64,000 nucleotides of DNA from an uncultured Flavobacteriales bacterium (GTDB lineage: Bacteria > Bacteroidota > Bacteroidia > Flavobacteriales_G > Salibacteraceae): assembly GCA_943788725.1 (NCBI GenBank), contig CALSRJ010000002.1, positions 62,001 through 126,000 on the forward strand. The letters are read 5' to 3'. The stretch's first letter is position 1, and every line of letters starts with the position of its first letter. Position numbers and translations under genes: made by a program. Below, in pieces: positions 43,482 to 46,100 of the stretch. The notes beneath the pieces are model-generated. The model saw only the letters and a program-made list of their open reading frames with translations. It searched no databases and was not told the origin of the DNA.

Positions 43482-44846
43482 ATGAAATCACTCTTGAAAC
43501 TCGGTTTTCTTTCAGCAGCCATCTTGCTCGTTGCGAGCAGCTGCCAGAAGGTTACGCAAACGACAAGGTACACAGCCAACGTGCCACAATACCTCAGCTA
43601 CGAGGATCTCAGATCTTCGATCCACAACGACAACGAGCGATCCCTGGAACGACCAGGCAAGATTTTCCTTTACAATTCACTCATCTTGATCAATGATTAC
43701 GAGACGGGAATTCACATCTACGACAACAGCAACCCCTCCTCACCCAATCACATTGGATTCATCAATATACCCGGAAACGTAGACATCGCGGTGCGCGACA
43801 ACATCTTATACGTAGATAGCTATGTAGACCTTGTAGCGGTGGACATCAGTGACCCATCGAACGTTCAGGAGATTGGGCGTGCTGAAGGCGCGCTCTCTTA
43901 CACGATTCCGTCTCAAATGGATTGGAACTACCCAGTAGCACAGATTGACCAGAGTAAAGGAGTGGTAACCGGATTTGAAGTAGGCGAAGTGGAAGAGACG
44001 TGTGAAAACGAAGCATGCCGCACCTTTTATCGAAATAACATGTCGAGTGATTGGAATGGATCATGGGGCGGTCAGATGATGAGTGACAATGGTTCACCCG
44101 TATCTTTCAGCGGCAACACCAACAACGTACGCAGCACGAGTTCAGCAACTGGCAATGCTGGCATTGCCGGTTCAATGGCGCGTTTTATGCTGGTTGATAA
44201 TTTCCTTTACGTGATCTCTGATGAGAACACGGTTAACGTTTTCGACATCACCACCAGCAACATGCGAGAGGTGAACACCTTCCAACCTTGGCAGCAAGCT
44301 GGCGGTGGACGAGGAGTGATTGAGACCCTGTTTACGTTTAAGGATCGTTTGTTCATTGGCTCGAACGTAGGAATGTTGGCATATAACATCAGCGATCCTT
44401 CCTCACCTCAATACCTATCCAGTTACAGTCACTTGACTTCATGCGACCCTGTTGTTGCAAACGATGATTACGCCTTTGTTACGCTTCGTGCGGGCACAGC
44501 ATGTGGCGCCACCAACACCAATCAAATGGATGTACTGGATATCGTAGACATTATGTCACCCACCATCGTCAATACGGTCAACTTGTCAAACCCACATGGC
44601 TTAGACATCGACAGCGAGAAGAACATGGTATTTGTTTGTGATGGAATGGACGGCCTCAAGGTATACGACTACAGCAACGTAAATGAAATTCAGAACAACC
44701 AATTGAATCACATTGCTGGATTGAATACATACGATATCATTCTAAACAACGGTATTGCGCACATGATAGGCGATGACGGACTACGCCAGTACAGCTATGA
44801 CGATGCAGGCACACTGGTTGAATTAAGCACGATTCCGTTGAATTAA
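43482..44846 (+). CDS. LVIVD-repeat beta-propeller lipoprotein
   Basis: This 454-residue lipoprotein (lipobox VASSC, Cys about 21) is built of repeated blades with the LVIVD pattern (DLVAVDISDPSNVQEIG; NVFDITTSN; GMLAYNISDPSSPQYL; DVLDIVDIMSPTIVNTV; LKVYDYSN). It is probably surface-exposed or periplasmic; the function of this family is not established. A 70-residue insert between blades (about 140-210) holds two close Cys (EETCENEACRT). A terminator at 44929 ends its transcript. Confidence 0.85.
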   Translation: MKSLLKLGFLSAAILLVASSCQKVTQTTRYTANVPQYLSYEDLRSSIHNDNERSLERPGKIFLYNSLILINDYETGIHIYDNSNPSSPNHIGFINIPGNVDIAVRDNILYVDSYVDLVAVDISDPSNVQEIGRAEGALSYTIPSQMDWNYPVAQIDQSKGVVTGFEVGEVEETCENEACRTFYRNNMSSDWNGSWGGQMMSDNGSPVSFSGNTNNVRSTSSATGNAGIAGSMARFMLVDNFLYVISDENTVNVFDITTSNMREVNTFQPWQQAGGGRGVIETLFTFKDRLFIGSNVGMLAYNISDPSSPQYLSSYSHLTSCDPVVANDDYAFVTLRAGTACGATNTNQMDVLDIVDIMSPTIVNTVNLSNPHGLDIDSEKNMVFVCDGMDGLKVYDYSNVNEIQNNQLNHIAGLNTYDIILNNGIAHMIGDDGLRQYSYDDAGTLVELSTIPLN

Positions 44847-44898
44847 CGTTTATTGACATTACCCGTGTAACAATAAGGCACTTCAAGCGTCATATTAG

Positions 44899-44965
44899 TA
44901 CATAGGTTAGTAGGTTTAGTTTAAAGACAGGCTCTCTCAATTCCCACGAGAGGGCCTTCTTTTTT
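44899..44965 (+). ncRNA. Candidate small RNA 1 (or 3' end of the LVIVD mRNA)
   Basis: The block 44899-44921 (TACATAGGTTAG then TAGGTTTAGTT) is repeated exactly at 45016. It is followed after 7 nt by a terminator hairpin: AGGCTCTCTC / GAGAGGGCCT (44929-44938, 44948-44957) and a T-run. No clear promoter of its own is seen; GGCAC lies upstream but the -12 half is missing. It could be released by processing of the LVIVD transcript, whose stop is 53 bp upstream. Confidence 0.45.
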
Positions 44966-44988
44966 ATTCCTTTTCAAAAGCAAAACAT

Positions 44989-45005
44989 TTGGCACAGCTA
45001 TTGCA
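44989..45005 (+). promoter_or_regulatory. Sigma-54-type promoter of small RNA 2
   Basis: TTGGCAC-N5-TTGCA fits the sigma-54 consensus TGGCACG-N4-TTGCA at every position but one: GG at 44991-44992 and GC at 45003-45004 are 12 bp apart. The predicted start is about 45016, the first base of the conserved block. Confidence 0.65.
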
Positions 45006-45015
45006 ACAACCTACA

Positions 45016-45079
45016 TACATAGGTTAGTAGGTTTAGTTGTAAAAAGCCCCTTGCAAGATATCCGAGCAGGGGGCTTTTT
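45016..45079 (+). ncRNA. Candidate small RNA 2 with sigma-54 promoter
   Basis: A transcript of about 64 nt would begin with the 23-nt block shared with 44899-44921 (two UAGGUU units), then GUAA. The terminator stem AAAAAGCCCC / GGGGCTTTTT (45041-45050, 45070-45079) follows directly. A free 5' seed plus terminator is the layout of a minimal trans-acting sRNA. There is no open frame of note inside. It ends 40 bp before the convergent pdhB stop, and the hairpin may also stop pdhB. Confidence 0.6.
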
Positions 45080-45119
45080 CAATTCTAAGAAGTAAGGCCT
45101 CTACGCCTCTAGGTGCTTA

Positions 45120-46100
45120 TTATACTAAGTACATGGATTCCTTTACCAAGTGAATGATACGACCTACCGTAGGAATGGCGATCTCAATCAAGTTGGGGGT
45201 GAAAGGAAAAGGTGTATCGGATTGGGTAGCGCGCGTAACGGGAGCATCTAAGTAATCGAATGCATCTTTTTGAATGCGGTATGCTATCTCACTTGACACG
45301 GAAGCATAGGGCCAGCTCTCATCAACCACAACACATCTATTTGTCTTCTTCACCGATTCAATGATCGTTGCCACATCCAACGGGCGGATTGTGCGCAAGT
45401 CAATGACCTCACACGTGATGCCATCCTTGGCCAATTCGTCAGCAGCCTCCAAGACTACTTTCATGATCTTACCAAATGAAACAATCGTAACGTCTTCTCC
45501 TTTGCGCTTGATATCAGCCTTACCAATCGGGATGAGGTACTCTCCTTCTGGAACTTCTCCTTTATCACCGAACATCTTTTCCGACTCTAGAAAGACGACG
45601 GGATCGTTATCGCGGATGGCCGACTTCAACAGGCCCTTTGCATCATACGGTGTGGAGGGAGTAATCACTTTGAGTCCGGGCACGTGTGCATAAAACGCCT
45701 CGAAACTTTGAGAGTGGGTTGCAGCAAGCTGTCCTGCCTGTCCATTACCACCACGGAAGACGATTGGCACGTTGTACTGACCACCTGACATCTGAAGCAT
45801 CTTAGCCGCAGAGTTGATGATTTGATCCGCTGCAAGGATCGCAAAGTTCCATGTCATGAATTCGACAATGGGTCTCAATCCATTCATCGCTGCACCCACA
45901 CCGATGCCAGCGAATCCAAGTTCTGCGATCGGAGTGTCGATGATGCGCTTTTCACCGAATTCATCTAACATACCCTGACTCACCTTATAGGCGCCGTTGT
46001 ATTCAGCCACTTCTTCTCCCATCAAGAAGACACGCTCGTCTCTTCTCATTTCCTCTGACATTGCCTCGCGAAGGGCCTCTCTGAATTGTATCGTTCGCAT
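45120..46100 (-). CDS. pdhB: Pyruvate dehydrogenase E1 component, beta subunit
   Basis: This 326-residue transketolase-type beta subunit has the thiamine-site Glu in DTPIAELGFAGIG (about 55-67), GGNGQAGQLAATHSQ (about 118-132), and a C-terminal transketolase domain (IRPLDVATII, VVDESWPYA). It pairs with an alpha subunit not in this window and feeds pyruvate to acetyl-CoA. Full length and intact. The promoter TATTTTTG lies 20 bp upstream. Confidence 0.94.
   Translation of the reverse strand: MRTIQFREALREAMSEEMRRDERVFLMGEEVAEYNGAYKVSQGMLDEFGEKRIIDTPIAELGFAGIGVGAAMNGLRPIVEFMTWNFAILAADQIINSAAKMLQMSGGQYNVPIVFRGGNGQAGQLAATHSQSFEAFYAHVPGLKVITPSTPYDAKGLLKSAIRDNDPVVFLESEKMFGDKGEVPEGEYLIPIGKADIKRKGEDVTIVSFGKIMKVVLEAADELAKDGITCEVIDLRTIRPLDVATIIESVKKTNRCVVVDESWPYASVSSEIAYRIQKDAFDYLDAPVTRATQSDTPFPFTPNLIEIAIPTVGRIIHLVKESMYLV

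Follow-up and report, generated by a model that had tools for sequence, protein, structure and literature searches.

Predicted sibling small RNAs behind sigma-54 and ECF-type promoters form a conserved tandem locus beside pdhB in Salibacteraceae

The gap between an LVIVD-repeat gene and pdhB of an uncultured Flavobacteriales bacterium (Salibacteraceae) harbors a real, new, and strongly conserved locus of sibling small RNAs (sRNAs): two tandem, terminator-ended genes for predicted RNAs of ~65-70 nt. What sets this twin locus apart is that one copy lies behind a sigma-54 and the other behind an ECF-type promoter; the functional steps proposed below are predictions from sequence. Regulation by sRNAs in Bacteroidota lacking Hfq is largely open, FopS with RbpB being the main worked example. 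The locus adds a compact, strongly conserved sRNA family from another branch of the Bacteroidota, with siblings behind different alternative-sigma promoters and a box that is common, in the same sense, to the 3' ends of oxidative-stress mRNAs. Coordinates refer to the window, i.e., the whole stretch of 64,000 nucleotides analyzed, and are collected in Table 1.

Table 1. Features of the twin sRNA locus and its neighbors in the window.
Feature	Position	Strand	Basis or remark
LVIVD-repeat gene	43482-44846	+	Convergent with pdhB; dispensable for the sRNA locus (missing at this site in G009/L069)
Upstream element TTAACGTTTrTTrgCA (window: TTAACGTTTATTGACA)	44843-44858		Conserved; upstream sequences compared by eye
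ECF-type promoter of copy 1, TGTAAC (44866-44871)-N16-CGTC (44888-44891)	44866-44891	+	Like elements in all copy-1 and single-copy orthologues
Block copy 1, predicted 5' end of sRNA-1	44899-44921	+	Repeat, uniqueness, conservation
sRNA-1 terminator hairpin and U tail	44923-44966	+	Fold; compensatory changes
Sigma-54 -24/-12 promoter of copy 2, TGGCAC (44990-44995)-N5-TTGC (45001-45004)	44990-45004	+	Motif; conserved in orthologues
Block copy 2, predicted 5' end of sRNA-2	45016-45038	+	Repeat, uniqueness, conservation
sRNA-2 terminator hairpin and U tail (arms 45041-45054 / 45066-45079)	45040-45083	+	Fold; compensatory changes
pdhB, pyruvate dehydrogenase E1 beta	45120-46100	-	Convergent neighbor; synteny anchor

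The 23-nt block (TACATAGGTTAGTAGGTTTAGTT) occurs twice in the gap, as the first-pass annotation had reported, in copies that are 100% identical and spaced 117 nt apart. Its further description also held: identity ends at the block edges, and a strong terminator, different for each copy, follows as a hairpin with U tail that starts 1-2 nt past the block. When up to three mismatches were allowed, exactly two copies were found within the 64-kb window, none in 100 shuffles, and exactly two across the whole 2.93-Mb genome; the wide occurrence in coding or non-terminator settings that had been named beforehand as fatal to the sRNA reading was not observed. The hairpin of copy 1 has a minimum free energy of -19.9 kcal/mol (z -3.4), that of copy 2 of -26.1 kcal/mol (z -5.3). 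In the predicted fold, the UAG-rich 5' box is single-stranded and precedes the terminator hairpin, in support of the claim that the 5' block is unpaired. The first-pass annotation had also contrasted the conserved block with variable hairpins. The hairpins do differ, but their stems are constrained, since in the orthologue alignment 9 of the 13 pairs of the stem show double compensatory changes that preserve pairing. The terminator loop is partly conserved (approximately AGATATCCAA) in sigma-54-type and single copies and differs in the first copies (approximately AATTACTCG; both alignment A1); possibly, it is a second functional element.

Beside pdhB, the sRNA unit is present in 12 of the 13 genus members; outside the genus, it was found in G015, a genome from a sister genus. 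For G002, the remaining genus member, a pdhB paralogue was all that could be found; the locus itself is therefore absent from its assembly. It persists where the LVIVD gene is lacking (L069) and where an additional gene stands next to it (L078). When ~85,000 species genomes were screened for a 20-nt pattern, all 13 stretches retrieved lay at the pdhB locus; their records bear the names Salibacteraceae or Flavobacteriales, with a single exception. The exception, L070 (NEED01000077.1; 'Unicellular cyanobacterium SU2'), evidently comes from a mislabelled or mixed assembly, and the locus it carries is flavobacterial. Viral contigs gave no match. Among 19 copies, the block core averaged 98.8% identity and the remainder of the RNA 60.6%; at fourfold sites of pdhB, which are saturated, the mean was 32.5%. 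Two copies are present in G000, G003, G005, G007, G008, and L070, one in G001, G004, G006, G009, G010, G012, and G015, and three in G011, the middle one being diverged. This middle copy (L024) carries an insertion in the box, and the upstream TTGACA...TACATTTC resembles a Bacteroidota housekeeping promoter. The conserved upstream element lies directly after the LVIVD stop codon, is partly retained (GAACGTTTTTAGCA) where the LVIVD gene is absent, and is a possible regulator or enhancer site.

The proposed sigma-54 promoter before copy 2 proved to be a clean -24/-12 element. It ends 11 nt upstream of the second block, which places the predicted +1 at the first block base, 45016; the GG-N10-GC arrangement ~11-12 nt before the start is kept in orthologues. 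The pattern TGGCAY-N5-TTGCW matched three sites in the genome, and only the one at the twin locus combines TGGCAC with TTGCA. The element before the last copy is conserved in six further genomes: the final copy of every multi-copy locus is preceded by TGGCAY-N5-TTGC (TTGT for TTGC in one case, L070), at exactly 11 nt from the block in six of the seven sigma-54 copies. RpoN is encoded in 34 of 35 genomes of the family. Within the genus, G009 (82% complete) is the only member in which rpoN was not detected; its locus (L030, L069) is also the only single-copy one whose sRNA lacks a TGGCRY element. Strict-consensus sigma-54 sites numbered 3-6 per genome, which is chance level except for the twin-locus site, so that no sigma-54 regulon could be read from them.

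For copy 1, the first-pass annotation had named no promoter; an ECF-type promoter-like element conserved in relatives precedes this copy. Every copy-1, single-copy, and second-family member (see below) shows CGT[CT] with a -35-like element ~16 nt upstream, and the CGT box of copy 1 is similar to motif SM6 in Flavobacterium psychrophilum (PMC9723704). Furthermore, at six single-copy loci (G001, G004, G006, G010, G012, and G015; L025-L029, L031), TGGCRY-N5-TTGA lies 29-30 nt upstream of the block and overlaps the ECF -35 element (TTGAAATAAA); every one of the six has GA in place of GC. This overlap points to a possible shared ancestral gene: a sigma-54-like and an ECF element may originally have served one gene and later been divided between duplicates, the order of events being inferred.

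Sibling sRNAs with alternative promoters have precedents. The Qrr sRNAs are sigma-54-dependent. Qrr and GlmY/GlmZ resemble the twins as sibling sRNAs with sigma-54 promoters and differ from them in sequence, host phylum, helper proteins, and genome layout. For GlmY, overlapping sigma-54 and sigma-70 promoters are reported in a work that PMC4211561 cites, an arrangement that the single-copy orthologues may resemble. In F. psychrophilum, the sRNA Rfp36 lies behind a sigma-54 promoter (SM4) and Rfp11 behind an ECF-like CGT-box promoter (SM6; PMC9723704); these flavobacterial sRNAs are likened to the twins by promoter type, but were not reported as siblings.

A covariance model (R1) built from the 19 copies was run against 42 genomes of the order, followed by a second model (R2) whose training data included some of its own matches; the E-values of the models are rough. 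Matches were chosen by score, blind to gene identity, which was checked via Pfam and NCBIfam. Many weak matches (below ~30 bits) looked like plain terminators and were discarded; a few with R1 scores close to those of the accepted boxes (e.g., G009:C226, G010:C4:6104) were unconvincing. A UAG-rich box with a terminator of like design was found a few times per genome, and these additional units, after inspection, support the suggestion of a sibling family with further members. A second candidate for a free-standing sRNA consists of TTAGGGTAGGTTTAGT and a terminator, preceded by CCAACC-N16-CGTC/T. It lies beside smpB in G000, G008, G005, and G001 and at a different site, shared among them, in G006, G010, and G004 (G000:C3:666256-666324; orthologues L171, L174, L176, L222, L172, L229, and L237). 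The box also directly follows the stop codons of dps, adjoining an OxyR-like regulator (G011, G007, G008, G003), of a thioredoxin-like gene (G000, G005, G007, G008; weaker in G001 and G002), of yceI (G010, G006), clpB (G010), and katG (G011), and, in another genus, of hsp20 (G020). Model R1 picked up the boxes after dps, the thioredoxin-like gene, yceI, clpB, and katG. Such 3'-end boxes occur in some relatives only; the genome to which the window belongs yielded, as its only further units, the thioredoxin-like tail and the sRNA beside smpB, and its dps gene, looked for by synteny, was not located. The box is rare: across 464 kb of own sequence taken without selection, the twin locus alone scored above 32 bits. 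A general terminator feature was also considered and ruled out, as the box is not usual at terminators and rare in unselected sequence. In the dps, trx, clpB, and G011 copies, the box tolerates insertions and altered UAG spacing. A box common to sRNAs and oxidative-stress mRNA 3' ends suggests post-transcriptional stress control in an Hfq-less setting, and the twin locus is probably linked to the oxidative-stress response.

The closest known counterpart in build is FopS of Bacteroides thetaiotaomicron, RNAs of ~65 and 70 nt with a single-stranded 5' stretch and a terminator that are bound by RbpB and include one 3'-UTR-derived member (PMC11697453). The twins share with it a multi-member family, a size of ~65-70 nt, a single-stranded conserved 5' part before a terminator, a 3'-UTR member, and an Hfq-less Bacteroidota host with an RRM protein. 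With the predicted ends, the unpaired conserved 5' region stands directly before the Rho-independent terminator and the RNA spans ~65-70 nt; several paralogues, including a putative 3'-UTR-borne one, were recognized. FopS itself is induced by stress (bile), and the twins have stress-type promoters; FopS genes, however, use housekeeping promoters, whereas the tandem copies use sigma-54 and ECF-type ones. An Rfam cmscan of 44850-45100 (E ≤ 10) listed no FopS, and all matches were below the gathering score. Hence, the twins are FopS-like in build and not a FopS member by covariance model.

Hfq was not detected in the genus (0 of 13 genomes). RRM proteins were present in 11 of the 13, the two genomes without a match being G012 (92% complete) and G002 (78%), and the RRM protein of the window's own genome matched many RRMs of known structure. 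The block contains four UAG words and, by pattern check, GUUAGU and GUUUAGU, which fit RUnAGU, the consensus of the eukaryotic RRM protein Musashi-1 (PMC10942595); as this consensus may not hold for a bacterial RRM, the fit is no more than a lead. By analogy with RbpB and FopS, the box would most likely dock an RNA-binding protein, namely an RRM protein in place of Hfq, and may additionally pair with targets as a seed. FopS sets a precedent for both: RbpB binds within its conserved 5' region, where the seed lies as well; hence, the two roles are not exclusive. An ECF sigma factor would drive sRNA-1 and sigma-54 would drive sRNA-2, letting a single RNA function respond to two stress signals. 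We give an even chance to the reading that UAG-box sRNAs and mRNA 3' ends form a FopS-like stress family with an RRM-docked box that is perhaps also a seed. Stand-alone sRNAs and stress-mRNA tails might then share, or compete for, the box-binding protein. A more specific version is offered tentatively, as we consider it rather improbable: box and terminator would be an Hfq-independent 3' docking module, bound by a dedicated RRM protein on the sRNAs and on the tails of the oxidative-stress mRNAs of dps, katG, thioredoxin-like, yceI, and clpB, and the sigma-54- and ECF-induced twins would titrate or redistribute the protein. If true, this docking and titration model would bring several stress signals together on a single post-transcriptional regulon. 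The locus allows a direct test of RRM recognition of a defined UAG motif on sRNAs and mRNA tails.

The first-pass annotation had favored a different role for the block, as a seed pairing with mRNAs. In full, this would make the twins classical antisense siblings like OmrA/OmrB or FopS, in which the copies add inputs and the 3'-UTR copies are processed to sRNAs. An unpaired 5' block, a length of ~65-70 nt, a terminator, near-total conservation, and siblings with different promoters all agree with it, and FopS members pair via their conserved 5' region (PMC11697453). OmrA/OmrB of Escherichia coli likewise are tandem siblings whose first ~21 nt are nearly identical and whose promoter regions differ (PMC4211561); they depart from the twins in having shared 3' ends as well, in working with Hfq, and in that their antisense targets are known. 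A genus-wide pattern search for antisense sites (CCTACTAACC-type; 13 nt, ≤1 mismatch) yielded few, scattered matches, none conserved and not at conserved genes or start codons, and a k-mer test at 350 sampled start regions gave no clear enrichment of complements; short seeds may have escaped these searches. A shortfall of antisense matches relative to a reversed control may reflect the rarity of CTA/TAG words and was therefore excluded as evidence. Insertions and altered UAG spacing suit protein sites better than a contiguous seed; together with the same-sense copies at stress-mRNA 3' ends and the lack of conserved complements, they favor protein docking over a pure antisense seed, and we regard purely antisense siblings as possible, though doubtful.

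Two further explanations dispense with sRNAs or with an RNA-level role. The hairpins lie between convergent genes, and similar boxes occur in other 3' UTRs; hence, they might only terminate LVIVD and pdhB transcription, the block being a 3'-UTR element of the LVIVD mRNA. Against this, the locus is kept without the LVIVD gene (L069) and with another gene as neighbor (L078), two promoter types stand at a near-fixed distance from the block, and plain termination has no need of an invariant 23-nt block or of its repetition; this explanation is very improbable. Still further down we place the block as a DNA operator or enhancer, e.g., for a sigma-54 activator. Two copies ~117 nt apart would suit it, but a terminator immediately follows the box, the orientation is fixed, the box recurs at mRNA 3' ends, the second sRNA family combines box and terminator without sigma-54, and hairpin pairing is conserved. 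In another genus, free-standing units of AATAAGGGTAGAAGGTTTAAGG and a terminator (L150 in G033, L151 in G030) are possible distant siblings of the twins; the G033 unit stands in tandem with a weaker copy.
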